Source of the DNA: Panorpa germanica
Taxonomy: Eukaryota > Arthropoda > Insecta > Mecoptera > Panorpidae
Length of the DNA stretch: 64,000 bases
Assembly: GCA_963678705.1 (NCBI GenBank)
Contig: OY783215.1
Span: forward strand, 14,737,740-14,801,739
Reading direction: 5' to 3'
Shown here in pieces: positions 1-56,789 of the stretch. The notes under the pieces are model-generated. The model was not told the origin of the DNA. It did not search any database and worked only from the letters and a program-made list of their open reading frames with translations. Position 1 is the first letter of the stretch; every line of letters begins with the position of its first letter. Made by a program: the position numbers and the translations under genes.

Positions 1-29
1 TAAAAAAACAACTTGCTGTTACTTCGTAA
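1..29 (+). CDS. 3' end of an upstream ZAD zinc-finger paralogue (partial)
   Basis: The first bases of the window reproduce the last codons of the ZAD gene ending at 2537: both end ...Q-L-A-V-T-S-stop, with the stop here at 27-29. The downstream sequence to about 160 stays nearly identical to the 3' flank after 2537, including an AATAAA at 48-53 that matches the one at 2556-2561. This is therefore the tail of another array member whose body lies left of the window, and the closest visible relative of gene 1. Only nine codons are visible, so nothing can be said about its fingers. Confidence 0.75.
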
Positions 30-756
30 TACTACGTAATTTACGGTAATAAATGATAAAAAGATTAAACAAAATTTCTTTATTCAATCTTAATTATTTT
101 TCTCCGCTAAATGCAGTTACATCTACTTATGGTTTATTTAACGTAAAAAAGGTAACTGTTAAAATATCTATATATATATATATATATATATACATATTAA
201 TTATTTTAAGCATATATTTAATTTCAATATAACAAAATTATATTAAATAAATATTCGAGCCATTCGATTTATGATGGTGAATTTCGATAATACAAATTTA
301 GACTTTCCTTAATGCGTTATAGTCCAAATCACGAGAGTTCGGCGGCGACTTATACTTAAAAGAGGTATAAGAGCGGTATAAATCTATAATACGATAATGA
401 ATTTTATCTTATTTGTTTCTATATACATTATAGAAAAATAAGTGAGTCAGTGCTTTTTAGTTATATCGGTAGTTTATGCCCACAACTTGTTTTAAGTATG
501 AGTCGCTGCCGAACTCTCATAATTTGAACTATGTATATATGGTTTATAAATTTTTATCTTCAATTCTGAACGCAATCCAATGGTCAATGCAATGTGAAGA
601 TTGTTATTATTTGCTCTTATGATCTTCAATTCAATTCAACTTCAATTCACTTCAATTTTTCCTTTTATTTTTGGTTATCTGTCATTCTCAAAGAAAGTTT
701 AAAATATTACATTTCTCTATAATTTTGCACTACTATCCGATAGTTATATTTTGACA
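30..756 (+). promoter_or_regulatory. Intergenic region and promoter of ZAD gene 1
   Basis: This gap holds the 3' flank of the upstream paralogue, a (TA)n run at 167-193, a small inverted-repeat element at 322-529 (listed separately) and the promoter of gene 1. Two blocks recur before the array genes: a TTCTGAACGC box at 564-573 and a TCTGTCATT box near 679, about 190 and 80 bp before the ATG at 757. Their repetition at similar spacing suggests core promoter or 5' UTR elements. No transcription start can be fixed from sequence alone. Confidence 0.5.
322..529. mobile_element. Family Z miniature inverted-repeat element, copy 1 (TA target duplication)
   Basis: A 208-bp element whose ends are imperfect inverted repeats: the left end begins GTCCAAATCACGAGAGTTCG and the right end is close to its reverse complement, finishing ...TCATAATTTGAAC. 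TA dinucleotides flank it at 320-321 and 530-531, the target duplication typical of the Tc1/mariner superfamily. It has no coding capacity. Related copies lie at 38356-38542 and 47378-47554. It sits between two ZAD genes and may have inserted after the local duplication, because the other intergenic gaps lack it. Confidence 0.75.
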
Positions 757-2537
757 ATGGATACCGATGTGGAGACAATTAATATTGAAAAGATAATTTC
801 GGACTGGGACAAATTATGTCGAATTTGTTTAGCAGATCAAGAGCTTTTATTTCCTGTTTTTAGCATTATTGAATTAGATGAACAGTACAATATGAGTTTT
901 TGTGAAATGCTAAATACCTGCTCGACCCTTAAAGTATATATTTGGAATATTATTTTATAATGAAATAACACGTTTCATTGCCTATCACGTTTTCTTTAAA
1001 TGCAAGTCTAATTTTTTAGGTGTCGTCTAATGATAATTTTCCACAATTAATTTGCTCATTATGCATTACACATATGCGTCACGCACTAGAATTCAGAATA
1101 AAATGCCAATCTTCCCAAATGATATTAACAGAAATACTACATAAAAAGAATGGTAAGAATCTTGTGTATAGGCTGTATATGAGACATGGAAAATAAGACC
1201 ACTTGAAACTACCTACTACATATGACAATATTATTTTGGGACTTTTGAAATATAGCTTCAAAATCGAAGTATTTTGACTAAGCAACATTTCTATTCAATT
1301 TTTTTTTGTTAAAGATTTAAATACAACCGTAAAATGTGAAGTAATTGAAGTAAAAGAACCCTCTGCAGAAACCAGTGCTGAGTATTTGTACTTAGTTGAA
1401 GCAAAATTGGTTACAGAAGTCGATGAAAAAGAAAGCCCAAAGAAACAGTCACATACTATATTACCTACAAAGAAAGAAAATATAGAATCAAATAGTATTA
1501 TCTTAAAGAAAGTGCATAGCTGTCCAATATGCCAAGAATCCTACAATTATAGAGAACTACAATCACACAAGAAAACACATCCTAATACATGCTGGAGATG
1601 TAACATTAATTTTAAAAGAGTAGTAGAATACAAAGAGCATTTAAACGAACATAAAGAAAAAGTTTGCTCCGAATGTGGAAAGGTTTTAAAAAACAAAGAG
1701 TTATGTTGTCCACAGAAAATAAAACCAGTAAGAAATAAATTAAATTCTGTATTTTCAAGGATTAAAAAAGTGCACACCTGTCCAATATGCCACGTATCTT
1801 GCAAATACAAAGCACTAGGAGCCCATAAGAGAACCCATCTCAATACATGTTGGAAATGTAACACTAGTTTTAAAAGCGCGAAAGAACATGAAGACCATTT
1901 CAAAGAGCATGAGGAAAATGTTTGTTCTGAATGTGGAAAAGTTTTTGCAAACAAAAGATTGTGTAAACAACACAAAATTATTCACGCTAAGGACAAATGT
2001 TTGTGTACAATTTGTGGAAAAATATTTGTTACTCCATCTGCTTTGATCGTTCATCATCGAAAGCATACTCAGGAGCAGAGATACGATTGTAATTATTGCG
2101 GCAAAAAGTTTATGGATTGGTCAAGCCGAATAATTCATATTCGAAATCATCATACTTTGGAAAAACCATTTGCGTGTGATATTTGTAACAGTTGTTTTGC
2201 ACATAAACGTCAGTTAGTACGCCATATGCTAATCCATTCTAATGAAAAGCCTTTCACGTGTACGATGTGTGATTCGAGGTTTAAACGAAAGTCAACATTA
2301 ACTACTCACATGTTTAAGCACACCGGAGAAAAACGAGTGTTTTGCACAGTTTGCAACAAAGGGTTTGTCAAAAATCATAATTTAAAAGTACATATGGTGA
2401 CGCACACTGGAGAAAAGAACTTTGTGTGTTCTGTGTGTAGGAAAGGGTTTTCACAAGCACATGTGCTGCGCACTCACATGAAAATACATGTGGAAAGTGC
2501 ATCAACAAAGAAAAAACAACTTGCTGTTACTTCGTAA
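757..2537 (+). CDS. ZAD C2H2 zinc-finger protein, array gene 1
   Basis: Predicted nuclear DNA-binding protein of 510 aa. Exons 757-933, 1020-1152 and 1315-2537; introns are GT-AG, in phase 0 then phase 1. Exons 1-2 encode an N-terminal ZAD (zinc-coordinating, dimerising) with C21-x2-C24 and C71-x2-C74. A short acidic linker follows. Exon 3 holds twelve C2H2 units (about residues 171-495), the third degenerate: it keeps CSEC but has CC where the histidines belong. Units 1-3 and 4-6 are an internal duplication. TGEK linkers join units 10-11 and 11-12. The ATG at 757 is chosen because all paralogues start there. The C-terminus QLAVTS is shared only with the partial copy at the window edge. The ZAD-ZNF family is known in insects, but the targets of this protein are unknown. 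Confidence 0.9.
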
Positions 2538-3327
2538 TACTACGTAATTTACGGTAATAAAATGATAAAAAGATTTGGAAAAATTTCTTTATTCAATCTT
2601 AATTATTTTTCCCCGTTAAATACTGTAACATCTATTTATGGTTTTTTCTGTTAAAATATGTATATATATTAAATATGTAAGCATTTATTTATTACAATGT
2701 AACAACATTATATTAACCTTCGTTAAGTTGTAAAACGTAACATTAGATAAAAATAATTATGTTATATATAATGTAATGCTGAGACATCTGGCAAAAAGCA
2801 CAAATAAACAAACATAATATACATGTTTTGCGTTTAGCGGGTCTGTCCTTTTCATTAATTATAATTGAAATGTAAACATTTATCGAATATATTGTGATAT
2901 TACGATTTCATTTGCTTCCTCTTTAAATATGTTTTCAGAAATACATTTTAATTTTTTTTAACTTATGCTAAAAGAAATTATTATAACAAATTTTCAAGCG
3001 TACTGTAGTACATTTTTCCAGAAACTGGGATGTGTTTCGGAGGTAAATACCAACAACCTAAATGTTTTTCTTTCGAAAATATTCGAGCCAACGAAAAATT
3101 ACACATACATATGGTTTATAAATTTTTATCTTCAATTCTGAACGTAATCCAATGGTTAATGCAATGTGAAGGTTGTTATTATTTGCTCCTTTGATCTGCC
3201 GTTTGCTTCAATGCTGTTACTTCAATTTTTTTTCTTAATTTTTAGATATCTGTCATTCTCAAAGAAAGTTTAAAAGATTACAATTAATTATAATTTTGCA
3301 CTAGTATCCGATAATTATATTTTGACA
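2538..3327 (+). promoter_or_regulatory. Intergenic region and promoter of ZAD gene 2
   Basis: The first part is the 3' end of gene 1, with AATAAA at 2556-2561 only 18 bases after the stop. The middle (about 2700-3100) is AT-rich with nothing I recognise. The last 200 bp are closely similar to the region before gene 1, with the TTCTGAACG box at 3136 and the TCTGTCATT box at about 3249. Confidence 0.5.
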
Positions 3328-5103
3328 ATGGATACTGATGTGCAGACAGTTAATATTGAAAATATAATTTCGGACTGGGACAAATTATGTCGAATATGTT
3401 TAACAGATCAAGCAATTTTATTTCCTGTTTTTAGCATTATTGAATTAGATGAACAGTACAATATGAGTTTTTGTGAAATGCTAAATACCTGCTCGACGCT
3501 TAAAGTATATATTCGGAATATTATTTTATAATGAAATAACACGTATCACGTTTTCTTTAAACGCAAGTCTAATTTTTTAGGTGTCGACTAATGACAATTT
3601 TCCGCAATTAATTTGTTCATTATGTATTACACATATGCGTCACGCGCTAGAATTCAGAATAAAATGCCAATCTTCCGAAATGATTTTAACAGAATTACTT
3701 CATAAAAAGAATGGTAAGAATCTTATGTGTAGGCTGTATATAAGACATGGAAGGATCAGATCAACTAAACATCAAATTGAAACTACCATATGACTTCCTG
3801 TTTTGGGACTTTTGAAATATAGTTTTAATAGAAGTAGTTTGATTAATCAACATTTATATTCAATTTTTTTGTTAAAGATTTAAATACAACCGTAAAATGT
3901 GAAGTAATTGAAGTAAAAGAACCCTCTGCAGAAACCAATGCTGACTATCTGTACTTAGCTGAAGCAAAATTGGTCACAGGAGTCGATGAAAATGAAAGCC
4001 CAAAGAAAAAATCACATCCTATATTACCTACAAAGAAAGAAAATATAGAATCAAATAGTATTATCTTAAAGAAAGTGCATAGCTGTCCAATATGTGAAGA
4101 ATCCTGCAGTTATAGAGAACTACAATCACACAAAAAAACACATCCTAATACATGCTGGAGATGTAACATTAATTTTAAAAGTATAGAAGAATATAAAGAG
4201 CATTTAAACGAACATAAAGAAAAAGTTTGCTCCGAATGTGGAAAGGTTTTAAAAAACAAAGAGTTATGTTGTTCACAGAAAATAAAACCAGTAAGAAATA
4301 AATTAAATTCTGTATTATCAAGGATTAAAAAAGTGCATATCTGTCCAATATGCCATGTATCTTGCAAATACATAGAACTAGGAGCCCATAAAAGAACCCA
4401 TCTCAATACATGTTGGAACTGTAACATAAGTTTTAAAAACGCGGAAGAACACATAGAACATTTAAAAGAACATGACGAAAATGTGTGCTCTGAATGTGGG
4501 AAAGTTTTTAGAAACAAAGGATTATGTAAACAACACAAAATTATTCACGCCAAGGACAAATGTTTGTGTACAATTTGCGGAAAGAAATTTAGCACTCCTA
4601 CTAATTTGGCTGCTCATCATCGAAAGCATACTGAAGAGCCTAAAAGATATGAGTGTAGTTATTGTGGTAAAAAGTTTGCAGATTGGTCTACGCGCAGATA
4701 TCACATTAGGAATCATCACACGTTAGAAAAACCTTTTGCTTGTGATATTTGCAATAGTCGTTTTGCAAATAGGAGTCATTTGGTGGGCCACATGCCAACC
4801 CATTCCATTGAAAGACCATTTGCTTGTACAATGTGTGAAGCTAAGTTTAAACAACGGTCAGCATTAAATAAACACATGTTTAAGCACACGGGAGAAAAAC
4901 GAGTGTTTTGCACAGTGTGCAATAAAGGCTTCGTTACAAATCATAATTTAAAAGTACACATGGTTACACACACTGGAGAAAAGAACTTTGTTTGTTCTGT
5001 GTGCAACAAAGGGTTTTCCCAAGCACATGTCCTGCGGACTCATATGAACACACATTCAGACAATGCCTGCACTAGGAAGACGAACATTCATGGGACTCCG
5101 TGA
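3328..5103 (+). CDS. ZAD C2H2 zinc-finger protein, array gene 2
   Basis: 511-aa paralogue. Exons 3328-3504, 3581-3713 and 3878-5103, the same sizes and phases as gene 1 for exons 1 and 2. The ZAD cysteines are C21/C24 and C71/C74. Twelve finger units follow, unit 3 again lacking both histidines (CSECGKVLKNKELCC). It is most like gene 1 in exons 1-2 and in the promoter, but its tail (SDNACTRKTN-type) is like that of genes 3-7. The variable middle fingers differ from gene 1: unit 7 helix STPTNLAAHHRKH against VTPSALIVHHRKH, unit 9 ANRSHLVGHMPTH against AHKRQLVRHMLIH. Intron 1 is short (76 bp). Function by family is sequence-specific DNA binding in the nucleus. Confidence 0.9.
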
Positions 5104-5800
5104 TACTCCTATTTATATATGCATTTCCTTATATTTAATTAAATATTTGGCTGAATATTTTTGTATATCTTATTACAATTAAATTACTATATTACAATTA
5201 AAATATAATATAAATTTATTAAATATTTAAAGTTACTATATATATTTATTATCCAATACATTCTTTTAAATTCAATAATTTATTTCGCTCTTTGAATATA
5301 TCTTAACTAATATCTTAGAATTTGTTTTTAAGTTACGTAGAAACAGATAAGTTCAATGAAGTTCTTGCGTAACGCAAATTTATCCGAGAAACCAAATTTA
5401 TGAATCAATACACATGAAAGTATCCCTAGTTAATAATATGCATAACATCGAAGTCATATTGAATTCAAATTAAAAAAATTCATTGATAAAAGTCTTCACC
5501 ACTTCGTACGAAATGTCTGCAGTAGGGGAAATGTCTGCAATTCTGTTCTTATTATTACATTTAAGACCCAAACTAAATTGATAAATAATTTAACTTTTAT
5601 TTATATTATAAATAAAAGCTGAATTTAAGAAATATATATATTAGATAATATTTTGAACGACATTTATGGATTGCAGCACCATGAAGTCTGTTTTGATATT
5701 GTTTTCGTTTTAGATGATTTTTGTTTCCATTTGGTTAGCTGTCATTATGTGTCAAAGGAAGTTCTAAGTTTTGCGCTAGTATACAACAAATAGTTCAAGA
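5104..5800 (+). promoter_or_regulatory. Intergenic region and promoter of ZAD gene 3
   Basis: AT-rich 3' flank of gene 2 followed by a diverged version of the shared promoter: TTTTGAACGACAT at about 5651 and GCTGTCATTA near 5738. No other element was recognised. Confidence 0.4.
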
Positions 5801-7456
5801 ATGGATACTAATATAAAGTCAATAATTATTGATAATATAATTTCTGATTGGGAGAAATTATGCCGAATATGTTTAACGGATCAAACAATTTTATTTCCTG
5901 TTTTCAGTCTTGTTGAATTAGATGAACAGTACAATATGAGTTTTTGTGAAATGCTAAATACATGCTCGACCCTTAAAGTATATATTCTTAAAATTTGAAA
6001 TAACACGTATCATATTTTGCGTATCACTTTTTCTCTAAATGCACGTCTAATTCTTTTAGGTGTCATCTAATGATAATTTCCCGCAATTAATATGCTCTTT
6101 ATGTATTACGCAAATGCGCCATGTGCTAGAATTTAGAATAAAATGTCAATCTTCTGAAATGATACTAACGGAATTACTTTATAAAAAGAATGGTAAGAAT
6201 CTTCTATATGCCGTGATCATCAATTATGTCATCATTGATTACCCTGAAAATCAAAATAATTTGATTAATTGGAAGTAAATTTTGCGTTCAATTTTTTTGT
6301 TACAGATTTAAATACAGTCATAAAATGTGAAGTAATAGAACCCTCTGCAGAAACTGATGAGGAGCATCTATACCTAGCTAAAAAGAAAATTGTTACTGAA
6401 ATACACGAAAATGAATCGAAAAGTATTATCTTAAAGAAACTGCATACTTGTTCAATATGTCAAGAATCCTGCAGTTATAGAGAACTACAATCACACAAAA
6501 CAACACATCCTAATACATGCTGGAAATGTAACATTAATTTTAAAAATATAGAAGAATACAAAGAGCATTTGATAAAACACAGAAAAAATGTGTGTCCTGA
6601 ATGTGGAAAAGTTTTGAAAAAGCAAGAATTGTGTTGTTCTCAAAATAGAAATCCTGCAGAAAAGAAATTAGATTCTTTATTATTAAGGATTAAAAAAGTG
6701 CATAGCTGTCCAATATGTTTCGTATCTTGCAGATACAAAGAACTATTAGCCCATAAGAAAACACATCTCAATACATGCTGGAAATGTAACATTAGTTTTA
6801 AAAGCATGGAAGAACACAAAGAACATTTCAAAGAACATGAGGAAAATGTATGCTCTGAATGTGGAAAAGTTTTTAGAAACAAAAAGTTGTGCAAACAGCA
6901 CAAAAATATTCACGGCAATGGCAAGTATTTGTGTTCGATTTGTGGAAGAAGATTCAGTGATCGTGCTAATTTGGGCGCACATCTTCGAAGGCATACTCGA
7001 GAGCAAAGATATGAGTGTAGTTATTGTGGCAAAAAGTTTATAAATTGGGGTACGCGCAGAGATCACATTAGGAATCAGCACACTTTGGAAAAACCATTTG
7101 CTTGTGATATTTGTGATAAACATTTTGCACACAAGAAAAATTTAGATGGTCACTTGCGTACTCACTCCAATGAAAAGCCATTTGCTTGTACAATGTGCGA
7201 CGCAAAGTTCAAAGAAAAGTCACCGTTAAATAGACACATGTTTAAACATACAGGAGAAAAACGAGTGTTTTGCACAGTTTGCAATAAAGGGTTTGTTACA
7301 AATTATAATTTAAAAGTACACATGGTGACGCACACTGGAGAAAGGAACTTTGTTTGTTCTGTGTGCAACAAAGGGTTTTCACAAGCACATGTTCTGCGGA
7401 CTCATATGAACACACATTCAGACAATGCATGCTCCAGGAAGACGGAGATTGATTAG
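5801..7456 (+). CDS. ZAD C2H2 zinc-finger protein, array gene 3
   Basis: 486-aa paralogue. Exons 5801-5977, 6060-6192 and 6306-7456. It is shorter than genes 1 and 2 because the linker between ZAD and fingers is trimmed: the ILPTKKEN stretch is missing. The ZAD is intact (C21/C24, C71/C74). There are twelve finger units, unit 3 (CPECGKVLKKQELCC) lacking histidines. Units 7 and 10 (SDRANLGAHLRRH and KEKSPLNRHMFKH) match gene 7 rather than its neighbours, although its short intron 1 (82 bp) groups it with genes 1 and 2. The last two fingers are as in the other copies. Confidence 0.9.
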
Positions 7457-8022
7457 ACTCCGTGATACTCTTCTAAATATTTGTATTTCTTTATATTTAA
7501 TTAAAATGTCTAGCAGAATTTCTTTTCCAATCTTGTTTTAGTTTTCCTTTTTGTATATTATAATTGAAATATAATATAAATTTATTGAATATTGAAAGCC
7601 ACTGTGGTAATAATCAAGTACATTTCAATTTGTTTCGCTCTTTCAATTTGTTCTAACAAATAACTTAAAAATTTACATCAAAAATACTTCATATGAAATT
7701 AATAAGAATCTCGAAAGACAGGAGTACGTAATCAAACTGGCCAAGCAATCGGGGTATTAATTCATTTAATTTATATTTTAATAATTTTTTGTGATATTCT
7801 TTATCCAATATTCTGTATTTCTAAAATATTAATTCAGTAAAACTGAATTTACAGAATTCAAATTACATATGATATTTATTATGAACGCCATCCATTTGTT
7901 TGTAGCAGTGTGAAGGTAGTTTTATTCGATCTTGATTCAATGGATATTTGTCTTTTTCTTGGTTATCCTTCATCAATATTTCTTATTGTTTTGTATTAGA
8001 ATACCACAAATATATTTTAACA
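7457..8022 (+). promoter_or_regulatory. Intergenic region and promoter of ZAD gene 4
   Basis: AT-rich 3' flank of gene 3, then ATGAACGCCATCCA at about 7881 followed by the TGTGAAGG block seen before other copies. The TCTGTCATT box is degraded here to a CTTCATC-like sequence near 7966. Confidence 0.4.
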
Positions 8023-9698
8023 ATGGATACTGATATGCAGTCAGTTAATATTGAAAACATAATTTCGGACTGGGAGAAATTATGCCGAATATGTTTAACA
8101 GATCAAGATGTTTTATTTCCTGTGTTTAATATAGTTGAGTTAGATGACCAGTACAATATGAGATATTGTGAAATGCTGAATACCTGCTCCACCCTTAAAG
8201 TATATATTTTTTAAATAATGAAATAACACGATCATTTTTCAAAACTATAAATAATTTATTCAACTATATCTAGTACATAAATTTTTAACCTAATGGTGAT
8301 ACATTTGCTTTCTAAATCATCACCATTATCAAGTCAAATAGTTTTGGGATTTGTTATGTGATTTTCTTAAATTAATGCATATCTTATTTTCTTTAATTGC
8401 AGGTTTAATTTTTAGGTGTCGTCTAATGACAATTTTCCGCAATTAATTTGCTCATTATGTATTACACATATGCGCCATGTACTAGAATTCAGAATAAAAT
8501 GTCAATCTTCTGAAATGATATTAACGCAATTAATTCATAAAAGAAATGGTAAGAATCTTCTGCATAGATCCCCAATTTTGTTGAGTATTAATACATAGAA
8601 TGTAGGATCATCTGAAAGGGGAACAACGTTCAATGTTTAAAACTTCTATCTGGACTTCGATCTGAAATTAAATTTTAGAAATTTGATTAATTGAAAGTCG
8701 AAATTTTATGTGTCTAATTTTTTGTTACAGATTTAAATACAGTCATAAAATGTGAAGTAGTTGAAGTAACAGATCCTCCTGGAGAAACTGACGCGGAGTA
8801 TCTGTACTTAACTGAAACGAAATTTGTTCCTGAAGTCAATGAACAAGAAAGCTTAAAGGACAAATCGAATCCTATAACACCTGCGAAGAAAGAAAATATA
8901 GAGTCAAAATGTGTTACCTTAAAGAAAATGCATACCTGCCCAGTATGTGAAGAATCCTGCAGTTATAGAGAACTGCAATCACACAAGAAAACACATCCTA
9001 ATACATGCTGGAAATGTAACATTAATTTCAAATCGGCGGAAGAACATAACGAACATTTCAAAGAGCATGAGGAAAATGTGTGCTCTGAATGTGGAAAAGT
9101 TTTTAGAAACAAAAGCTTGTGTAACCTTCATAAAATTATTCACGCCAAAGACAAATGTTTGTGTACAATTTGCGGAAAGAAATTTAATACACCTACTAAT
9201 TTGGCTGCTCATTATCAAAAGCATACCGCAGAGCCTAAAAGATACGCGTGCAATTATTGTGGCAAAAAGTTTGCAGGTTGGTCTACGCGTAGATATCACA
9301 TTAGGAATCATCACACGTTAGAAAAACCATTTGCCTGTGATATTTGTGATAAGCGTTTTGCACAAAAAAGACTCTTAATAGTTCACTTGCGTACTCATAC
9401 CAATGAAAAACCATTTACTTGTAAAATGTGCGACTCAAAGTTCTCTCAGTTGTCATCATTAAATAGGCACATGTTTAAACACACGGGAGAAAAACGAGTC
9501 TTTTGCACAGTCTGCAATAAAGGGTTTGTTACGAATTATAATTTAAAACTACATATGGTGACGCACACTGGAGAAAGGAACTTCGTTTGTTCTGTGTGCA
9601 ACAAAGGGTTTTCACAAGCACATGTTCTACGGACTCACATGAACACTCATTCAGAGAATGCTTGTATTAAGAAGATAGAGGTTGATACAAGTCCGTGA
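8023..9698 (+). CDS. ZAD C2H2 zinc-finger protein, array gene 4, with one finger module deleted
   Basis: 425-aa paralogue. Exons 8023-8199, 8416-8548 and 8731-9698. The ZAD is normal. Only nine finger units remain (about residues 171-410) instead of twelve. The first unit and the start of the second match module 1 of the other copies (ESCSYRELQSHKKTH), while the rest of the second unit onward matches module 2 (AEEHNEHFKEHEENVCSECG). The join lies in the stretch encoding CWKCNINFK, which both modules share. This is the product expected from recombination between the duplicated modules, and it removes the histidine-less unit. Intron 1 is of the long type (216 bp). The reading frame is intact throughout. 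Confidence 0.9.
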
Positions 9699-10357
9699 CA
9701 CTCTTCTTAATCTATGCATTTATTTATATTTAATTAAAATGTCTAGAACAATTTCTTTCTCCAATCATGGCCTTTTCTATTTGTATATTATAATTGAAAT
9801 AATATATAAATTTTTAATATATTTAAAGATACTGTATTTGTTATTAAGTACATTTCAATTTGTTTGGTTCTTACAATATGTTATAACAAATATCTTCTTT
9901 TTTTTTGTTAAGCTCCTTACAACCAGAAAAGCGTTAAGAAGTTTTCGCGAAACGCAAGTTTCCTGTGAGAACTAATTTTTAAATCAAAAAACATGAAATT
10001 CAGTTATTCAGCAGGAAATGTCTCTGCAATATGTACTGTATTTCCGTTCTGATATAATCCGAATTGACGTGAATTAATTGGGTATAAAAATGTTTTTGTT
10101 ATTTTATCCAATATTATATAAAGTTAAAGTTTTATATTTTAAGTAAACCTAAATTTTCAAGTTAAATATTAGATTACGTATTAGTTCTGAACACCAACCA
10201 ACAGATTTAAGCAGTATGAAGGTTGTTCACAGATGTTGTTTTTGTTGCAGATGTTTGTTTTCTTTTTACTTATGTGTCATTTTGAGTGAAATAAATTGTG
10301 GATATTGATTATTTTTATTATAGTTTTGTATTTGTATACGGCAAATATAATTTGAGC
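9699..10357 (+). promoter_or_regulatory. Intergenic region and promoter of ZAD gene 5
   Basis: 3' flank of gene 4, then TTCTGAACACCAACCA at about 10184, GCAGTATGAAGGTTGTT just after it, and TGTGTCATTTT near 10273. Otherwise AT-rich and featureless. Confidence 0.4.
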
Positions 10358-12273
10358 ATGAATATTGATATGGAGTCCGTTAATATTAAAAACATAATTT
10401 CGGACTGGGTGAAATTATGCCGAATATGTTTAACGGATCAAGCTGTTTTATTTCCTGTTTTTAATATAGTGGAGTTAGATGAGCAGTACAATATGAGATA
10501 TTGTGAAATGCTAAATACGTGCTCGACCATTAAAGTATATATATTAAAGTATATATTCAATAAAATTATGTGATCATTTTTCAAACCTGTAAATAATTTA
10601 TTCACATGTCTAATATATAGGATCTATATACTATCTAATTCCACACAATTTTACAAGTCAAATAGTCTTTAAGACATGTCATGTGATGTTCTCAGTTGTA
10701 AAACGCTTAAGATTTTATTTCAATGCAAGTTTAATTTTTAGGTGTCTTCTAATGACAATTTCCCGCAATTAATTTGCTCATTATGTATTACACATATGCG
10801 CCATGCCCTAGAGTTCAGAATGAAATGCCAGTCTTCCGAAATGTTATTAAAAGAATTACTTCATAAAAAAAATGGTAAGAATCTTCTGCAAGAGTTTCCG
10901 ATTTTGTTCATGAGTATCATTTCTATTCATGTCTTTAAAACTACTATCTGGGTAGCTGTTTAAGAAATACTGAAATATATCATTGAAATCAAAATAATTT
11001 GGTTAATTGAAATTCTAAATATGGTATTCAATTTACTCTTATAGATTTAAATACAGTCATAAAATGTGAAGTAATTGAAGTAGTTGAAGTAAAAGAAGCT
11101 TCTGCTGAAACAGAGTATCTGCACTTAGTTGAAGCAAAATTTGTTCCTGAAGTCGATGAAGAAGAAAACACAAAGGTCAAATCAAATCCAATATTACCTA
11201 CGAAAAAAGAAAATATAGAATCAAATAGTATTATCTTAAAGAAAGTGCATAGCTGTCCAATATGTGAAGAATCCTGCAGTTATAGAGAACTACAATCACA
11301 CAAGAAAACACATCCTAATACATGCTGGAGATGTAATATTAATTTTAAAAGAGTAGAAGAATATAAAGAGCATTTGAAGGAACATAGAAAAAATAACTGC
11401 TCTGAATGTGGAAAGGTTTTAAAAAACAAAGAATTTTGTTGTTTACAAAAAAGGAAACCAGTACGGACCATATTAAACTCATCATCAAGGATTAAGAAAG
11501 TGCATTCTTGTCCAATATGCCATAAATCCTACAAATACATAGAACTATTAGCCCATAAGAAAACTCATCTCAATACATGTTGGAAATGTAACATTAACTT
11601 CAAAAGCGCTGAAGAACATGAGGAACATTTCAAAGAGCATGAGGAAAATGTGTGCTCTGAATGTGGGAAAGTTTTTAGAAACAAACGCAGGTGTAACCTT
11701 CACAAAATAATTCACGCCAAGGACAAATGTTTGTGTACAATTTGCGGAAAGAAATTTAACAGTCTTACTAATTTGGCTGCTCATCATCGAAAGCATACTG
11801 CAGAGCCTAAAAGATACGCGTGTAGTTATTGTGGTAAAAAGTTTACAGGGTGGTCTGGGCGCAGAAATCACATTAGGAATCATCATACGTTGGAAAAACC
11901 ATTTGCATGTGAGGTTTGTGATAAACGTTTTGCAGAAAAAAGACACTTAGTAGGTCACTTGCGTACTCATACCAATGAAAAGCCGTTTGCTTGTACAATG
12001 TGTGACGCAAAATTCAATCAGATCTCTTCATTAAATAGACACATGTTTAAACATACTGGTGAAAAACGAGTGTTTTGCACAGTCTGCAATAAAGGGTTTG
12101 TTACGAATCATAATTTAAAAGTACATATGGTTACGCACACTGCAGGAAAGAACTTCGTTTGTTCTGTGTGCAACAAAGGGTTTTCACAAGCACATGTCCT
12201 GCGGACTCATATGAACACACATGCAGACAATGCATGCACCAGGAAGACAAACGTTGATGGAACTGCTTCTTAA
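10358..12273 (+). CDS. ZAD C2H2 zinc-finger protein, array gene 5
   Basis: 512-aa paralogue. Exons 10358-10534, 10742-10874 and 11045-12273. The start ATG at 10358 is set by alignment; an upstream in-frame extension exists but has no counterpart in the other genes. ZAD cysteines are conserved. There are twelve finger units, unit 3 (CSECGKVLKNKEFCC) lacking histidines. The linker between the last two fingers is TAGK rather than TGEK, which could weaken the fixed finger-finger geometry seen in the other copies. Long intron 1 (207 bp). Closest to gene 6 in units 4-9, for example NKRRCNLHKIIH in unit 6. Confidence 0.9.
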
Positions 12274-12873
12274 TATTAAAATGTCTAGCACAATTCCTTT
12301 TTACAATCTTAGTTTGGTCTTTTGTATGTGTATATTATAATTGATGAAATATAATATAAATATATTGAATATTTTAACCTACTGTTTATTATCAAGTACA
12401 TTTCAATTTGTATCGCTCTTTTAATATGTTGTAACAAATATCTTTGTATTTGATTTAAACTAAGTGAGTACAACCAGAAAAAAATTAAGATGGTTTCTTA
12501 TAAGGCGATATAATCAGAGACACCAAATTTTTAAATAAAGAAACATGAAAAAATCTCGGGTTAATAATATGCAGAACATTAGAAGTCATCATGAATTCAC
12601 ATCAACGAAATTCGAAACGAGACTTACTTTGCCTCGGGGTATTAAATAATTTTTTGTAATTATAATTAAGTCCCAACTTTGGTTTCTAAACGAAAGGCGA
12701 ATTTTCCTAATTTCATTCTGAACGCTATCCTAGAGCTTGTAACAGTATGAAGTTTACGTTAAACAGTTCTTGGCATAATGTTTTGTTCTGACATCTGTCA
12801 TTATTGTGAGATAATGTGAAATATTTATTAATTGTTTTAGTTATTATAAGAAGATAAGAAATATATTTTAACA
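12274..12873 (+). promoter_or_regulatory. Intergenic region and promoter of ZAD gene 6
   Basis: 3' flank of gene 5, then the TTCTGAACGC box at about 12716, an AACAGTATGAAG block, and ATCTGTCATTA near 12793. The spacing to the ATG at 12874 is close to that of genes 1, 2 and 7. Confidence 0.45.
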
Positions 12874-14808
12874 ATGGATACTGATATGCAGTCAATTAAT
12901 ATTGAAAATATAATTTCGAACTGGGAGAAATTATGCCGAATATGTTTAACGGACCAAGCAATTTTATTTCCTGTTTTTAGTATAGTTGAGTTAGATGAGC
13001 AGTACAATATGAGTTATTGTGAAATGCTAAATACCTGCTCCACTCTTAAAGTATATATTTTTTAAGTAATAAAATCTCTATCAGTTTTCAAAACTATAAA
13101 TAATTCATGTATCTAATAGATAAATCTATTAGCTAATGGTGGTACATTTGCTATCTAATTCTTCACCATTCCACAAGTCAAATAGTTTTGAGAATTGTAA
13201 TTTGATTTTGTCAGACATAAGGCGTATAATACCTTCTTTAAATGCAAATTTAATTTTTAGGCATCGTCTAATGACAATTTCCCGCAATTAATATGCTCAT
13301 TATGTATTACACATATGCGCCATGCCCTAGAGTTCAGAATAAAATGCCAATCTTCCGAAATGATATTAACTGAATTACTTCACAAAAAAAATGGTAAGAT
13401 TGTCCTGTATGTGTCCCCAAATTTATTAGTAAAGAGCCAGAAAATGGAACCAACTTTCTCTGGTGATTAATTTTAGTATCAGTTGAACTGAAGGTACTAT
13501 CTGGCTGTAGTTTGGCAATTTCTAAAATATAGCTTTAGATTATTTAGATTTTAATTATTTGAAATGTTACTTATTTTTACAGATTTAAATACAGTTATAA
13601 AATGTGAAGTAGTTGAAGAACAAGAAACCTCTACAGAAACTGATGTAGAGTATATGTACCTAGTTGAAACGAAATTTGTTACTGACGTAGACGAAAAAGA
13701 AAGCCCAAAAGACAATTCAAATTCTATATTACCTACGAAGCAAGAAAATTTAGAGTCAAATAATATTATCTTAAAAAAAGTGCATAGCTGTCCAATATGC
13801 CAAGAATCCTGCAGTTATAGAGAACTACAATCACACAAGAAAACACATCCTAATACATGCTGGAGATGTAACATTAATTTTAAAAGTATAGAAGAATATA
13901 AAGAGCATTTGAAAGAACATGTGAAAAATGTGTGTCCTGAATGCGGAAAAGTTTTAAAAAACAGGGAAGTGTGTTGTGCTCAAAAAGAAAGTCCTGTTAG
14001 AAGCAAATTAAATTCTGTATTATCAAGGATTGAAAAAGTGCATATCTGCCCAATATGCCATAAATCCTACAAATATAAAGAACTATTGGCCCATAAAAAA
14101 ACACATCTCAATACATGTTGGAAATGTAACATTAACTTTAAAAGCGCTGAAGAACATAAAGAACATTTCAAAGAGCATGAGGAAAATGTGTGCTCTGAAT
14201 GTGGGAAAGTTTTTAGAAACAAACGCAGATGTAACCTTCATAAAATAATTCACGCTAAGGACAAATGTTTGTGTACAATTTGTGGAAAAAAATACAGTGA
14301 TCCTGCTAATTTGGCTGCTCATCATCGATCTCATACTGAAGAACCCAAAAGATACGTTTGTAGTTATTGTGGCAAAAAGTTTACAGGCTCGTCAGGGCGC
14401 AGAAATCACATCAGGAATCATCACACGTTGGAAAAACCATTTGCTTGTGAAGTTTGTGATAAACGTTTTGCAGATAAAAGACACTTTGCAGGCCACTTGC
14501 GTACTCATACCAATGAAAAGCCGTTTGCTTGTACAATGTGTGAAGCAAAATTCAATCAATTGTCGTCATTAAATAGGCACACGTTGAAACACACGGGAGA
14601 AAAACGAGTCTTTTGTGAAGTCTGCAATAAAGGCTTTGTTACAAATTATAATTTAAAAGTACACATGGTGACGCATACTGGAGAAAAGAACTTTGTTTGT
14701 TCTGTGTGCAACAAAGGGTTTTCACAAGCACATGTTCTGCGGACTCATATGAACACACATTCAGAGAATGCATGCACCAGGAAAACGGATGTCGATGGAA
14801 CTCCTTGA
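12874..14808 (+). CDS. ZAD C2H2 zinc-finger protein, array gene 6
   Basis: 511-aa paralogue. Exons 12874-13050, 13261-13393 and 13583-14808. Exon 2 begins GCA (Ala) where all other copies have GTG (Val). The ZAD is intact. There are twelve finger units, unit 3 (CPECGKVLKNREVCC) lacking histidines. The finger 10 helix ends NRHTLKH instead of the usual NRHMFKH, and finger 11 reads CEVC instead of CTVC. Long intron 1 (210 bp). Codon usage and base composition match the other copies. Confidence 0.9.
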
Positions 14809-15290
14809 CAATCTTTTTAACATATGCATATCCTTATATTCAATTATAATGTCTTGCAGAATATCTTGTTCCAATATTGGTTTGTAATATAAATTTATTG
14901 AATATGGAAAGTTACTGAGTATTTTTATCAAGTATGTTAATATATTCTAACAAATATAATAGAGACGAAGCAATCGGTTTTAAATCTATTTGTATTATTA
15001 TATTTATTATCCGAATATTTTAATTTCTTTTTGTAGCATAATAAGTATTATGTTAATCTAAAACTTTTGTACTCTTTTTGATTAAATGTTATTTATCAAA
15101 AATGAAATCAAAGTTATATATTCATTCTGAACGCCATCCAATATATTTTAGTTATTTAAATTAATTTGCTTCATCTGTTGTTTACTTCACATAATGTTTA
15201 TTTTTTGATATCTGTCATTATATGTTGTGAAACGAATATTTTATTACATTGATATATAGTTTAGTAGAGCACGGCAAAAATATTTTGACA
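14809..15290 (+). promoter_or_regulatory. Intergenic region and promoter of ZAD gene 7
   Basis: Short 3' flank of gene 6 followed by TTCTGAACGCCATCCA at about 15124 and ATCTGTCATTA near 15208, the cleanest match to the array promoter pattern. Nothing else recognised. Confidence 0.45.
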
Positions 15291-17191
15291 ATGGATTCTG
15301 ATGTGCATACAATTAATATTGAAAAGATAATTTTGAACTGGGAGAAATTATGCCGAATATGTTTAACGGATCAAGCGGTTTTATTTCCTGTTTTTAATCT
15401 AGATGAATTAGATGAACAATACAATATGAGTTTCTGTGAAATGGTAAATACCTGCTCGACGCTTAAAGTATGTATTTTTTAAATAACAGAATACGTTATC
15501 ATTTTTCTAAACTATATCTAATATATAAATCTATTAGCTATCTAATGGAGATAAATTTACTATATAATTCATTACTATTTTACAAGTTAAATAGCTATTA
15601 TAGCTGTCATATATTTTACTCGCATATTATGCACATAATATTTTCTTTCAATGCAAGTTTAATTTCTAGGTGTCGTCTAATGACCATTTGCCACAGTTAA
15701 TTTGCTCATTATGTATTACACATATGCGACACGCATTAGAATTCAGAATGAAATGCCAGTCTTCCGAAATGATATTAACAGAAATACTTCATAAAAAGAA
15801 TGGTAAGGGTCTTCAAATTTGTTGTCTAACTAGCCATATTAAGATATAGAAAGGGGGTTGACTTTGTTTGGGTACTTATGAAATATTAAATATATAATGA
15901 AAATAATGTAATTTATTGAAATCCCAAATTATATATTCCATTTTTTGTTACAGATTTAAAAACAGTCATAAAATGTGAAATAATTGAAGTAGTTGAAGTA
16001 CAAGAAGCATCTGCAGAACCAGATGCAGAGTATCCGTTCCTAGCTGAATCGAAATGTGTTACTGAAGTCAATCAACAGGAAAACCCGAAGAACAAATCAA
16101 TTCCAATGTTATCTATGAAGAAAGAAAATATAGAATCAAAAAGTGTTATCTTAAAGAAAATGCATACTTGTCCAATATGCCAAGAATCCTGCAGTTATAG
16201 AGAACTGCAATCACACAAGAAAACACATCCTAATACATGCTGGAAATGTAACATTAATTTTAGAAGAGCGGAAGAATATAAAGAGCATTTGAAGGAACAT
16301 GAAGAAAATGTCTGCTCTGAATGTGGTAAAGTTTTAAAAAACAAAGAGATGTGTTGTTCACACAAAAGGAAACCAGTAAGAAAAATAATAAGTTCTACGT
16401 TATCAAGGATTAAAAGAGTTCATACTTGCCCAATATGCCATAAATCATATAAATTCAAAGAACTATTGGCCCATAAGAAAACCCATCTCAATACATGCTG
16501 GATATGTAACATTAGTTTTAAGAACGCTGAAGAACATACAGAGCATTTCAAAGAACACGAGGAAAATGTGTGCTCTGAATGTGGTAAAGTTTTTGCAAAC
16601 AAAAGATTGTGTAAACAACACAAAAAAAATATTCACGCCAAAGACAAATATTTGTGTTCGATTTGTGGAAAGGAATACAGTGATCTTGCTAATTTGAACG
16701 CACATCTTCGAAGGCATAACAGAGAGAAGAGATATGAGTGTAATTATTGTGGTAAAAAGTTTACATATTGGTCTACGCGCAGGTATCACATTAGGAATCA
16801 TCACACTTTGGAAAAGCCATTTGCTTGTGATATTTGTGATAAGCAGTTTGCACAAAAAAAGAATTTAGTAGGTCACTTGCGTTATCACTCCGATGAAAAA
16901 CCGTTTGCTTGTACAGTGTGTGATGCAAAGTTCAAAGAAAAGTCACCGTTAAATAGGCACATGTTTAAACATACAGGAGAAAAACGAGTGTTTTGTAAAG
17001 TCTGCAATAAAGGGTTTGTTACAAATTATAATTTAAAAGTACACATGGTGACTCATACTGGAGAAAAGAACTTTGTTTGTTCTGTGTGCAACAAAGGGTT
17101 TTCACAAGCACATGTTCTGCGCACTCATATGAACACACATTCAGACAATGCATGCACCAGGAAGACGGAGATTGATACGACGACGCTGTGA
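15291..17191 (+). CDS. ZAD C2H2 zinc-finger protein, array gene 7, frameshifted at the start of exon 3
   Basis: Exons 15291-15467, 15670-15802 and 15955-17191 by comparison with the paralogues. At 15957-15964 the other genes read TTAAATACA but this copy reads TTAAAACA, one base short. Continuous translation therefore gives ZAD plus a few residues and a stop (D-L-K-Q-S-stop). From about 15956 a second frame is open to the stop at 17191 and encodes a complete set of twelve fingers, unit 3 again with CC in place of histidines and unit 6 with an extra Lys (KQHKKNIH). Without the shift the protein would be about 509 aa. No alternative acceptor that repairs the frame is visible. It is either a very recent pseudogene, a ZAD-only product, or an assembly error. 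Confidence 0.8.
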
Positions 17192-18205
17192 TACTCTTTT
17201 AGGCCTTTGCATTTTCTCATATTTAATTATAATTTCTTGCAAGATACCTTCTTCCAATCTTAGGTTTGTCTTTTCTATTTGTATATTATAATTCAAATAT
17301 AACATAAATGTATTCAACATTTAAAATTACTGAATTTATTATTAAGTATATTTCAAGTTGTTTCACTCTTTCAATATGTTCTAATAAATTTTTTTAAGTT
17401 GCGTACTATAAGCTTTTATAAAGTTTTCTCGCAACGCAAATTTTTCAGAGATGCCGAATCTTAAATTCACGAAACATTGAATAATATGTATTTCATTTCA
17501 AGTCATAATGAGTTCACATGAACGAAATTCATTGATAAAAGTAAAATATCCCACATCTCGAAACCTAGATCTGGTCGCTTTGATAAATACGAATGGAGGC
17601 AAAGGAATCTGGTAACAAATACATTTTTATTATTATGTTTAATACCCGAATATTTTAGTTTCTTTTTGTAATATACTTTATCCTATTCATATCTCATTTT
17701 CTATAAAGCAGAATTCTCAATATAAAATTATGATTATGATATTCTGAACGCCATCTGAAAGAATGTACCATGATGTACCAGTTGAAGGTGTTGTAAGTAT
17801 TATCTCTGGATTAAACTTTTGCTTTTGTTTTATACCATGCTGGTTACTTTAGATTATCTCTCATTATTACAGGGGACCCCCAGGGGCCATCACTTAAAAT
17901 AAAACACTTAGATACGGAAGAAACCGACTCTGCTTGTGAAGGGATCAAAGATAATATATACTGGAAAACACCGCTTTTAGCGACACCAAGGGATTCTATG
18001 AACTAAAATTGAAACGTTTGAAAGCTAACCTTAAAACTATTATGGCTATTTGCAATCATTTTTGTGTTCGTAAGTGTCCGTAAGTGTTTATAAAGTAAAT
18101 ACGGAAATCTTTATATAAAAGAAAATTAATAATCCAATTAAATATATCAAACAATTAGTTGACTCTTTTAACATATTCGTAAATTTCAAGTATAATAATA
18201 TAGTA
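17192..18205 (+). other. End of the ZAD array with an orphan promoter-like remnant; 5' region of POP7
   Basis: About 17192-17560 is the 3' flank of gene 7 and resembles the flanks of other copies. At 17740-17871 the array promoter pattern recurs (ATTCTGAACGCCATCTGAAA, then GTTGAAGGTGTTG, then ATCTCTCATTATT) but no ZAD exon follows. Homology stops at about 17871, just before GGGGACCCCCAGGGGCC. 17880-18205 has no recognised feature and should contain the POP7 promoter and 5' UTR. Confidence 0.5.
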
Positions 18206-18786
18206 ATGGCGGACACTCAATCAGATGTTGCAGCAAATCGAGAAATTCAGAAGAATAAACAACGTCGAAATACAAATAATTATTCATTAAAAAAAAGAAC
18301 GGTAACAAAATTATCGCGACAGGAGAATGACATTTACTTTACAAATAAAAGCAGCTATCAGGTAAGAATCGTCATTATTTTATAAAGTTCAAATATGTGT
18401 TATTGTATTGTAGCTGTCATTTTTATTATTTAGTTCCAGCGTCAAAAATGCATAAAGATCTTGGAACCTGGTGATAAAGATGTGGTTTTACATGCTCTAG
18501 GAGCTTCAATTACTCGTTGTTTAAACTTAGCTCTTGATATTCGAGAATACTATTCAGGAACCTCTGAATTTGAGGTTAATACATCAACAGTTAATTTAAC
18601 AGGTTAGTACTTATATTATACTTAAGTTTTATTTTGTAATTGAGTCAATTTTTGTGTAAAGAGCTCTCTTTGTTTTTAGATGACCTAGAACCACTTACGG
18701 ATGAATTAGATTTTGCCACGCAGAAGCGTCAGAATAGTGCCGTTCACATTAGAATTTATCGCACAGGATCAATTGTTCAACGATAA
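18206..18786 (+). CDS. POP7: Ribonuclease P/MRP protein subunit p20 (POP7/Rpp20)
   Basis: 143-aa Alba-family subunit of RNase P and RNase MRP, which in animals pairs with Rpp25 to bind the P3 domain of the RNA; nuclear/nucleolar, tRNA 5' and rRNA processing. Exons 18206-18361, 18434-18602 and 18680-18786, GT-AG, total 432 nt. Recognition rests on the family hallmarks: a basic N-terminus with a RQENDIYFTNK-type start, GASITRCLNLALDI (the Alba loop and helix), VNTSTVNL, DDLEPLTDELDF, and the C-terminal RQNSAVHIRIYR. Length is near the human protein's 140 aa. Its stop lies 6 bp before the TMEM203 ATG, with no room for a separate promoter, so both may share one transcript. Confidence 0.88.
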
Positions 18787-18792
18787 AGTGAA

Positions 18793-19197
18793 ATGTTTTT
18801 TACTTTATTAGAGATTGTTCAGTGGTTAGGATTAACAATATTTGAAATTTGGGTTAACCTCTTATCAATTACATTATTTACTATATTATTAGCTCTACAA
18901 ATTTCCACTGATGAGTCTGAGTGGTGGATTACATTTTCTCCTTTATTTGCATGCGATTTATTGAATTGTTATTTCTGTGTTATTGTTTTTATCAGAATGT
19001 ATTTAGAAGGAACACACAGACCAGCACTTCTTAGAGCTTGCTGGAGTTCTGTCCTCTTAGTACTTACTAGTGTGTTTAAATATTTGTTGTGCAAAAAACT
19101 TTCAAGTCAGACTGGTCTAGAGTATAGTGAAGTGTTTGCACCAATGTTCATTCTACTTCAGCTTATAGCTGTGAGGGCTTGCCAGTTGAACCAATAA
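18793..19197 (+). CDS. TMEM203: Transmembrane protein 203 (TMEM203)
   Basis: 134-aa multi-pass membrane protein, single exon. It matches the TMEM203 family from end to end: N-terminal LLEIVQWLGLTIFEIWVNLL, the central loop ESEWWITFSPLFACDLLN, then YLEGTHRPALLRACWS, KYLLCKKLSSQTGLEYSE and the C-terminal PMFILLQLIAVRACQLNQ. Four hydrophobic segments fit the known topology. In vertebrates TMEM203 is an ER protein that affects calcium stores and interacts with STING-pathway components; the role in insects is less clear. The start follows the POP7 stop by 6 bp. An AATAAATAAA-like signal at about 19252-19262 would serve as the poly(A) site for a joint transcript. Confidence 0.9.
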   Translation: MFFTLLEIVQWLGLTIFEIWVNLLSITLFTILLALQISTDESEWWITFSPLFACDLLNCYFCVIVFIRMYLEGTHRPALLRACWSSVLLVLTSVFKYLLCKKLSSQTGLEYSEVFAPMFILLQLIAVRACQLNQ

Positions 19198-54995: not shown

Positions 54996-56789
54996 TCTTT
55001 AATTTTTCATTCGATACGTGATAGACGTGTTTTGTTTGTTTCCTTAAAATAATTTAATTGAACTAATATTATTAAATATATATATATAAATTAATTAAAA
55101 AGTAAATATAAATTTAAAGTAAAATTGCATTATCTAAAATATTATTATTTTAATAATCAAATTTTCTGAATTTAAAAAATGAATTTGAATTCTGAGGGGA
55201 AAGTGGGAGTTGATCCAAATATAAATTTATACAATGAAGATAATTTAACTTTATCTTCTTATAAAATTATGATTCAGAAAGAAGATATTCTAAATGAAAA
55301 ATATGGGATCAGTACATTAAAAACAGCAAAAATGTTATATAATTCAGAATATGGAAAAGATATTACAGAAATAAAGAAAATAGGGAAAAATAGAATAATG
55401 GCGGTATGTAAAAATCCTAAATCAGCTAATATGTTAGTGAAATGCAATAACAAGAAAACATCAGGAGTTGATATGTTTATACCAATGTTTTGGATTACAA
55501 GAATTGGAATTATCAAAAATGTAGATATTGAATTTTCGGAGGAAGAATTAAAAGAAAACATTTATAGTGACCCGTATAAAATCCACTCCATAAGGAGATT
55601 AAAAAGGAGAGTGAAAGTTGAAGATGAAATTAAATATGAGGACTCTAGAAATATTATCATTTTCTTTGAAGGTCAAAATTTACCTCAATATATTTATATT
55701 TGGAATGCTAAATTACTCTGTGAACCATTTATTAAAAATACGAGACAATGTTATAAATGTTTAAGATATAACCATACGGCCAATCAATGTAAAGGAAAGA
55801 GTAGATGTAGCAAATGTGGTTCAAATGAACATACGCTAAATTTATGTAAAAATGAAATTATAAAATGTGTAAATTGTGATGAAGAACATGATGCGACTGA
55901 TAAAAACTGCAAAGAAAGAAAAAGGCAACAAGAAATAAAAATTTTAATGGGAAACAGAAATCTTAGTTATCAAGAAGCCGCTATTGAAATACCTCAAATT
56001 TGGAAAGACAAAAATTCGTATGCTGTAACTACAAAAAATAGATTTGATATATTATCTAATTATGAAAAGGACTTTCCTCAAAATTTAATAAGTTGTGAAA
56101 ATAGTATACCATCATATAAGCCAGCACCCATTAGAAAAAGAACATATTTAGATAGAAACTGTAAAAAGGAAAATATTAAAAAACAAAATAATATAAATGA
56201 TAATAAAATTGAAACTAAACAGAATGAGAAAGAACAAAGTTTCATTAATTATATTACAAATTCTACACCTAGAACTTATAATACAAGGAACAATTACAGA
56301 AAAAATGAACAAGATAATGACGAGGAACAAACAGAAAATAATTCTCAGAGGTCCATAAAAGTACCAAAAATTCAATCCAACTCTAAATTATTAGCATCAC
56401 AAAATTTTAGTGAAAATAAAAATGAAGAAAGAAATAAATTCATGACGGATTCAAATAAATTTTCTATATTTGAAAATATAGAAAGAGGAAGAAAAAAATA
56501 GCGAAATTATAAAAATAATATAATATAAGAGCATACATATTAGAGTAACATATAAAATTATAATTATTAAATAGCGTCTATTCGTAAATAAGGTTTCTAG
56601 AAATTGATATTATAGAGTGGAACGGACGGAAATTAATTAGTGAAATATTAAAATATTTATAAATTTGTAAAATTAAATTATAAATTATAAAAGATGTATT
56701 TAAAAAAGATTGTTGGTGGCTATGACGAAAGAAAGTCAAGGCAAATAAGTGAATAAATATAAAAAAAAAAAAAAAAATCTTTAATTTTT
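54996..56789 (+). mobile_element. Full-length ORF1-only non-LTR retroelement with 12-bp target-site duplication
   Basis: The 12-mer TCTTTAATTTTT occurs at 54996-55007 and again at 56778-56789, directly after an 18-base A run (about 56760-56777). The element is therefore 55008-56777 (1770 bp): a 171-bp 5' leader starting CATTCGATACG, one intact 440-codon ORF1 (55179-56501), a short 3' UTR and a poly(A) tail. There is no reverse transcriptase/endonuclease ORF2. The perfect duplication and open ORF indicate a recent insertion that must have been mobilised in trans. Confidence 0.85.
55179..56501 (+). CDS. ORF1 (gag-like) nucleic-acid-binding protein of a non-LTR retroelement
   Basis: 440-aa protein. 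Three zinc knuckles follow one another at about residues 191-244: CYKCLRYNHTANQC and CSKCGSNEHTLNLC (both C-x2-C-x4-H-x4-C) and CVNCDEEHDATDKNC (C-x2-C-x3-H-x6-C). After them comes KILMGNRNLSYQEAAIEI, a motif usual after the knuckles in insect I/Jockey/R1-type ORF1. The N-terminal half is likely the RRM-like part. The C-terminal half is Asn/Lys-rich and probably disordered. Expected role: binding the element RNA into an RNP. Codon use is strongly AT-rich. There is no stop or frameshift. Confidence 0.85.
   Translation: MNLNSEGKVGVDPNINLYNEDNLTLSSYKIMIQKEDILNEKYGISTLKTAKMLYNSEYGKDITEIKKIGKNRIMAVCKNPKSANMLVKCNNKKTSGVDMFIPMFWITRIGIIKNVDIEFSEEELKENIYSDPYKIHSIRRLKRRVKVEDEIKYEDSRNIIIFFEGQNLPQYIYIWNAKLLCEPFIKNTRQCYKCLRYNHTANQCKGKSRCSKCGSNEHTLNLCKNEIIKCVNCDEEHDATDKNCKERKRQQEIKILMGNRNLSYQEAAIEIPQIWKDKNSYAVTTKNRFDILSNYEKDFPQNLISCENSIPSYKPAPIRKRTYLDRNCKKENIKKQNNINDNKIETKQNEKEQSFINYITNSTPRTYNTRNNYRKNEQDNDEEQTENNSQRSIKVPKIQSNSKLLASQNFSENKNEERNKFMTDSNKFSIFENIERGRKK

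Follow-up and report, generated by a model that had tools for sequence, protein, structure and literature searches.

A 64,000-nucleotide stretch of the scorpionfly Panorpa germanica (bases 14,737,740-14,801,739 of contig C12, hereafter the window; assembly of 464 Mb in 249 contigs) opens on a head-to-tail array of eight genes, U0 to U7, each coding for a ZAD domain followed by C2H2 zinc fingers. We conclude with good confidence that this array has been shaped by exchange between its copies and has diversified its DNA-reading fingers. The clearest case is U1, a chimera whose left part resembles U2 and whose right part resembles U0, and which lies between these two parents. The eight units belong to one ZAD-C2H2 subfamily that is also found at several other sites on C12 and on contig C3. 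The array is of a known kind and clearly records exchange by which a ZAD has been re-paired with a DNA-reading head.

In window coordinates, with negative positions to the left of the window, the seven genes that lie wholly inside it are U1 at 757-2537 (exons 757-933, 1020-1152, and 1315-2537; 510 residues), U2 at 3328-5103 (exons 3328-3504, 3581-3713, and 3878-5103; 511 residues), U3 at 5801-7456 (exons 5801-5977, 6060-6192, and 6306-7456; 486 residues), U4 at 8023-9698 (exons 8023-8199, 8416-8548, and 8731-9698; 425 residues), U5 at 10358-12273 (exons 10358-10534, 10742-10874, and 11045-12273; 512 residues), U6 at 12874-14808 (exons 12874-13050, 13261-13393, and 13583-14808; 511 residues), and U7 at 15291-17191 (exons 15291-15467, 15670-15802, and 15954-17191; 515 residues), all on the forward strand and each starting at its ATG. 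They are intact three-exon genes that share exon 1 (177 nt), exon 2 (133 nt), and GT-AG introns in all seven, with intron 1 falling between codons (phase 0) and intron 2 after a first codon base (phase 1); exon 3 measures 968-1,238 nt up to the stop, and the proteins of 425-515 residues contain no internal stops. Bases 1-29 of the window are the end of a complete eighth and leftmost gene, U0 (-1525 to 29, forward strand; exons -1525 to -1361, -1121 to -989, and -902 to 29; 409 residues), whose exons 1 and 2 are 165 and 133 nt long. The reading frames of all eight units are open.

An earlier note on this DNA, made from the window alone, had described whole ZAD zinc-finger genes duplicated head to tail, and in this it was correct; its seven ATGs, 177- and 133-nt exons, and common intron phases match all seven gene models, and the unit tail that it saw at the start of the window is that of U0. 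It had counted at least eight units and proposed a check further left. Eight were found, and a DNA search with the U6 exons (E ≤ 1e-4) revealed no ninth in the 38 kb left of U0, although a strongly diverged unit could escape such a search; an array extending further left was thus rejected. The nearest relative in that direction lies about 117 kb from U0, at C12:14.617 Mb, and neither the window nor the 40 kb to its left contains a sequence gap (N). The note had also described both exon 3 and the promoter as highly similar between units. The coding part of this description holds, with identities of 81-88% across the 21 pairs of U1-U7, well above chance. The likeness of the 5' flanks is limited to a short stretch: in the same pairs, identity is 48-83% in alignment columns 150-300 and 33-53% in columns 0-150 (the ATG being at column 412).

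The ZAD model PF07776 scores above its Pfam cut-off of 28 bits in all eight units, at 38.3-48.0 bits (40.8, 39.5, 46.1, 46.5, 38.3, 47.8, 44.4, and 48.0 for U0 to U7, respectively). The domain spans residues 20-95 and is interrupted by intron 1; its zinc cysteines C21, C24, C71, and C74 (C-x2-C ... C-x2-C) are invariant in U1-U7, which makes the set complete in seven of the eight units. Solved ZADs of CG2712 (E 4.5e-4), LD15650p (E 0.0017), and Grauzone (E 0.012) were matched by the ZAD of U6; a query with exon 1 only gave no ZAD match among the solved structures. Behind the ZAD comes an acidic linker, then an 86-residue module in one or two copies, and last a set of six fingers, which are fingers 7-12 in the two-module units. 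Each of the eight units has eight or nine C2H2 fingers of standard spacing, with all of their zinc ligands kept. Three fingers make up the module: a short one, in which 11 rather than 12 residues separate C from H; one whose helix is acidic (e.g., SAEEHKE); and a third finger. Thirteen of the 14 such helices in U0-U7 carry a net charge of -1 to -4, and the third finger of the first module copy is without its histidines in the six two-module units.

The number of modules is one in U0 and U4 and two in the other six units. The module of U4 is a hybrid: left of its junction it matches first modules at 93% and second modules at 74%, and right of it second modules at 82-88% and first modules at 71-73%. 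It thus arose by exchange between two copies, and the single module of U4 is a secondary loss. The 16 relatives described below carry three modules at C12:0.8157, 0.8186, and 1.0177 Mb, two at C12:4.836 and 14.617 Mb, and one in the remaining eleven, as counted by reading the translations; counting strict motif matches gives lower numbers for 9 of them, as module copies vary at the motif. Two modules as the ancestral state were rejected, given that relatives outside the main tree group carry one, and these sequences make one module the more likely ancestral number. For U0, the single module is ambiguous.

For the 21 pairs of U1-U7, synonymous divergence (dS) is 0.30-0.64, and its ratio to nonsynonymous divergence (dN), expressed as dN/dS, is 0.18-0.31; for the seven pairs of U0 with U1-U7, dS is 0.43-0.78 and dN/dS 0.25-0.36. 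By the measure of near-identical copies, the array is thus not young, and the note's word "young" finds no support for the array as a whole; only the event that involves U0, U1, and U2 is younger (dS 0.17-0.27). Among U1-U7, the ZAD (dN/dS 0.09) is under strong purifying selection. The linker stands at 0.47, fingers 7, 8, 9, and 10 at 0.51, 0.13, 0.25, and 0.16, respectively, and fingers 11 and 12 at 0.10 and 0.07.

In U1, a single breakpoint at the start of finger 7 (1999-2015) fits 444 of the 514 sites that separate U0 from U2. Left of it, 284 sites are U2-like and 34 U0-like; right of it, 36 are U2-like and 160 U0-like. The dS between U1 and U2 is 0.17 [0.11-0.24] on the left and 0.98 [0.64-1.73] on the right, and that between U0 and U1 is 0.60 [0.43-0.84] and 0.27 [0.17-0.39]. 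Trees were built from codons 1-200 and 330-509, excluding codons 201-329, and each block rejects the tree of the other (approximately unbiased (AU) test, p 0.001 and 1e-64); the value of the pairwise homoplasy index (PHI) was reached in 0 of 1,000 permutations. If U2 on one chromatid had crossed over unequally with U0 on the other, the product would be the order U0, hybrid, U2, with equal age on both sides of the breakpoint and two intergenes copied from one. The 5' flank of U1 diverges from that of U2 by 0.150 and its 3' flank from that of U0 by 0.167, and these similar values indicate similar ages, as predicted by one event. The U0-U1 and U1-U2 intergenes are the best-matching pair among eight stretches compared (405 bits; next 278). 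We infer that U1 originated by unequal crossover between U2 and U0.

The two intergenes also contain sequences of their own. A palindromic element of about 215 bp (318-532, a self-inverted match), resembling a miniature inverted-repeat transposable element (MITE), is present in the U0-U1 intergene and not in the U1-U2 intergene; it has 39 other scored copies, 92-96% identical, across chromosomes, and 1,873 candidates at a first look. About 390 bp of extra DNA (about 2717-3105) is confined to the U1-U2 intergene. A further trace of exchange joins U3 and U7, which have a recent 3' part in common: their dS is 0.24 in the last part (171 codons) and 0.59 before it, and their fingers pair with 98-100% tree support.

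A DNA search of the genome with U5 located relatives on C12 near 0.012-0.206, 0.81, 1.00-1.02, 4.84, and 14.62 Mb. On C3, relatives lie at 24.81 Mb, and C3:25.68 Mb matched more weakly. Subsequent tblastn in the stretches around the matches yielded 16 gene loci, of which C12 carries 14 and C3 two. The closer relatives are 76-81% identical to U5 over 0.7-1.2 kb, and the array members 77-87%. Trees were made of 21 ZADs and 23 finger heads; the genes at C12:0.201 and 0.206 Mb, for which ZAD exons were not found, entered the finger tree only, and the gene at C12:1.0025 Mb, with fingers in two frames, was excluded from trees and tests. One clade of all eight units is rejected by both sets (AU p 1.8e-12 for ZADs and 0.006 for finger heads). 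In the ZAD tree, U1-U7 together with five dispersed genes, and without U0, form a clade with 92% support; in the finger tree, U0 and U1 form a pair that lies outside the remaining units and is less well supported (52-75%). A ZAD clade of U1-U7 has 48% support, and a finger clade of U2-U7 is not rejected (p 0.118). The rejection of the eight-unit clade implies that the array brings together two or more lineages of a subfamily residing mostly on C12, and that U1 combines them. The earlier suggestion of a young array, perhaps private to the species or genus, is thus partly contradicted: the eight units are not one lineage's own burst, U0 falls outside U1-U7, and dispersed relatives overlap with array members in similarity. 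Scans of the viral_contigs and genome_contigs collections, which are not insect collections, found no relatives, and a literature search, a weak negative, returned nothing on this particular array.

The first 1.02 Mb of C12 holds 12 of the 16 relatives, with near-identical finger heads at 0.192, 0.201, and 0.206 Mb. The relative excluded above (C12:1001000-1005500, about 1366-1859) has fingers 7-12 in two frames and is possibly a pseudogene or a sequence error. With 150 of 273 candidates scored, the Pfam ZAD model has at least 148 matches in this genome. Two further groups of sequences with ZAD-like parts caught our attention. At C3:20816000-20847900 (matches to 20866856), head-to-tail repeats about 6.2 kb apart each carry a ZAD-like exon, with inverted repeats inside; neighbours are 95.4-95.5% identical within one stretch and 97.4-99.3% between two stretches, and by these identities this array looks much younger than that of the window. 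Its repeats were rejected as members of the present subfamily, as one ZAD exon only matches, at 32%. At C2:22313527-22329872, seven ZAD matches fall inside 16 kb; every one of them sits in a single unbroken frame of 315-380 residues, and this cluster of ZAD genes thus has a different exon structure.

The residues of a finger that contact bases are those at helix positions -1, 2, 3, and 6. There is clear extra change at these sites in fingers 7-10: the mean pairwise difference among the eight units is 0.618, compared with 0.330 at other non-ligand sites (p = 0.00015). The same excess is seen in seven dispersed genes alone (0.640 vs 0.335, p = 0.0003), and exchange inside the array therefore does not account for it. 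Taken finger by finger in U1-U7, the excess is significant for fingers 8, 9, 11, and 6 (p 0.008-0.04), with p < 0.01 for fingers 8 and 9. The contacts of finger 11 differ by 0.73 in the dispersed genes and less in the array (0.26), and those of finger 12 are invariant in all 15 genes, a set that excludes the eight more distant of the 23 finger heads. By pairwise counting, dN exceeds dS at the contacts, as positive selection of the kind expected for KZNF-like transposon silencers would have it, in 4 of the 28 array pairs; it does so in 34 of the 105 pairs of the 15 genes.

The view of the earlier note, a recent species- or genus-specific burst from a single founder at the locus, appears unlikely to us. 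Head-to-tail order and common introns agree with it, as do the U0/U1/U2 event, the grouping of the U1-U7 ZADs, at only 48% support, and the U2-U7 finger clade; it is contradicted by the dS among U1-U7, by the rejected eight-unit clade for both ZADs and fingers, and by relatives elsewhere on C12 and C3 of 76-81% identity, and the C3:20.82-20.87 Mb array, 95-99% identical in the stretches compared, shows what a really young array looks like. Somewhat more credible, and still not our choice, is that the mosaic consists of gene-conversion tracts instead of an unequal crossover, in an old array homogenised patchwise. U3 and U7 are indeed close in their 3' part only, and the nearest neighbour of a unit shifts along its length. 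Moreover, U1 and U2 diverge by 2.6% in intron 1 and 17.9% in intron 2, which speaks against a uniform age for the left part of U1; a later conversion at its front is possible. For U1, however, a single breakpoint accounts for most sites of the gene and for the intergenes on either side, and a crossover would be expected to leave the order U0-U1-U2. Both processes probably act, with conversion responsible for the likeness of U3 and U7. Tandem arrays are generally prone to assembly error, but collapsed or mis-joined copies are a highly improbable explanation here: U1 differs by 14-18% from its presumed parents in the flanks and intron 2 (2.6% in intron 1), the MITE-like element occupies one of the two intergenes only, and no N interrupts the window or the 40 kb leftward.

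The contact-site diversity might also reflect relaxed constraint after duplication, with most copies redundant and heading for loss, a possibility that we take seriously and nevertheless doubt. Mean contact dN in the array (0.554, by pairwise counting) is below dS (0.769), and contact-site change was on this ground rejected as proof of positive selection. In addition, U0 has a Tyr in place of the fourth ZAD Cys ligand and a first finger that is not intact, losses by which it may be decaying, and the C12:1.0025 Mb relative has its fingers in two frames. Relaxed constraint fits poorly with eight units that are all open, an overall dN/dS of 0.18-0.31 in 21 pairs, zinc ligands kept in the eight to nine standard fingers of every unit, and the invariant contacts of finger 12. 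The low contact dN, the losses in U0, and the uneven introns of U1 also weigh against the array as we read it, shaped by exchange and diversified in its DNA-reading fingers, and so do four further points: 70 of the 514 sites in U1 depart from the single-breakpoint fit; the contact excess in U1-U7 is not significant for fingers 7 and 10 (p 0.36 and 0.13); fingers 8 and 10 as a whole are well conserved (dN/dS 0.13 and 0.16); and pairwise dS and dN/dS are mixtures because the copies have exchanged sequence.

In an exchange-shaped array of this kind, the proteins would dimerise via the ZAD, as reported for other ZADs, and the acidic-helix fingers of the 86-residue module may contact protein, not DNA. 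Fingers 7-12 would read DNA; finger 12 would serve as a fixed anchor, the target proper to each copy would be set by fingers 7-10 (7-11 across the wider family), and exchange would re-pair the promoter, ZAD, and module of one copy with the reading head of another. By analogy, the proteins may recruit chromatin factors; their most likely role is that of regulators bound to chromatin, like Drosophila ZAD-ZNFs, and we favour, at low confidence, chromatin or gene regulation over transposon silencing. More speculatively, and with considerable reserve, the array may be a working generator of new DNA-binding proteins, in which recombination supplies a conserved front of promoter, ZAD, and module with finger heads from other copies. 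Finger 12, being fixed, would hold every copy on the common part of the binding site, diversification would fall to fingers 7-10 (7-11 in the wider family), and cofactor binding would be tuned by how many acidic modules are present. If so, the array would parallel KZNF turnover in an insect, with non-allelic exchange as the driving force. U1, with a readable breakpoint, parents, and order, offers a natural test of moving a ZAD front to another DNA-reading head and keeping it, and the fixed last finger next to variable fingers 7-10 predicts common and private parts of the binding sites.

Right of U7 lies its 3' flank together with a probable promoter remnant of a lost ninth unit (17192-17871, forward strand; remnant at about 17663-17869). 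In comparisons with the 5' flanks of six units, U2-U7, bases 17640-17871 score 58 with U4 (maximum of 200 shuffles, 38) and 44.5 with U3 (37.5), and do not exceed the shuffle maximum with U2, U5, U6, and U7. With two of the six comparisons above the shuffles, a truncated ninth-unit promoter at the right end is likely, not certain, and the right end of 17871 set by the earlier note is a reasonable one. The next genes on the forward strand are POP7/Rpp20 (18206-18786; PF12328, 50.0 bits with the spliced protein) and a membrane protein (18793-19197; PF10269, 25.7 bits in frame 18787-19197, cut-off 23.1) that we take to be TMEM203-like; a helicase gene is also among the right neighbours. The left neighbour, read by eye, is a mitochondrial carrier on the minus strand (-6160 to -5759). 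Further right, an open frame of 441 residues (55176-56501) with zinc-knuckle-like motifs looks by eye like the first protein of a non-LTR (long terminal repeat) retrotransposon, and gave no Pfam match at E 0.01.

Several known systems resemble this array. In the finger minisatellite of PRDM9, the copy number of a coding repeat shifts via misaligned exchange. The module is alike in this respect; its repeat is a three-finger unit with acidic helices and probably not the DNA-reading part. Drosophila ZAD-ZNF genes such as the Oddjob-Nicknack cluster (PMC7655104) have the N-terminal ZAD, variable linker, C-terminal C2H2 fingers, clusters, and gene turnover in common with it; relative to that account, the present array adds a ZAD/finger chimera with a mapped breakpoint, a copy-variable 86-residue module, and a fixed terminal finger. 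According to PMC9810180, ZADs can drive dimerisation, and that study ascribes the clusters of the cucoid clade of fly ZAD-ZNF genes, with introns in common, to DNA-based tandem duplication and mentions gene conversion among the possible reasons why tree and cluster disagree. Tandem clusters and common introns are alike in the two cases, whereas exchange between copies is directly seen here. Finally, the KRAB-ZNF genes of tetrapods and the FiNZ-ZNF genes of cyprinid fish are, according to PMC10547256, expansions of finger genes particular to their lineages and changed at the residues that contact bases, as in this array, but with another N-terminal domain and a role in silencing transposons, which Drosophila ZAD-ZNFs, according to the same paper, do not appear to target specifically; unlike those two families, this array has a mean contact dN/dS below 1.

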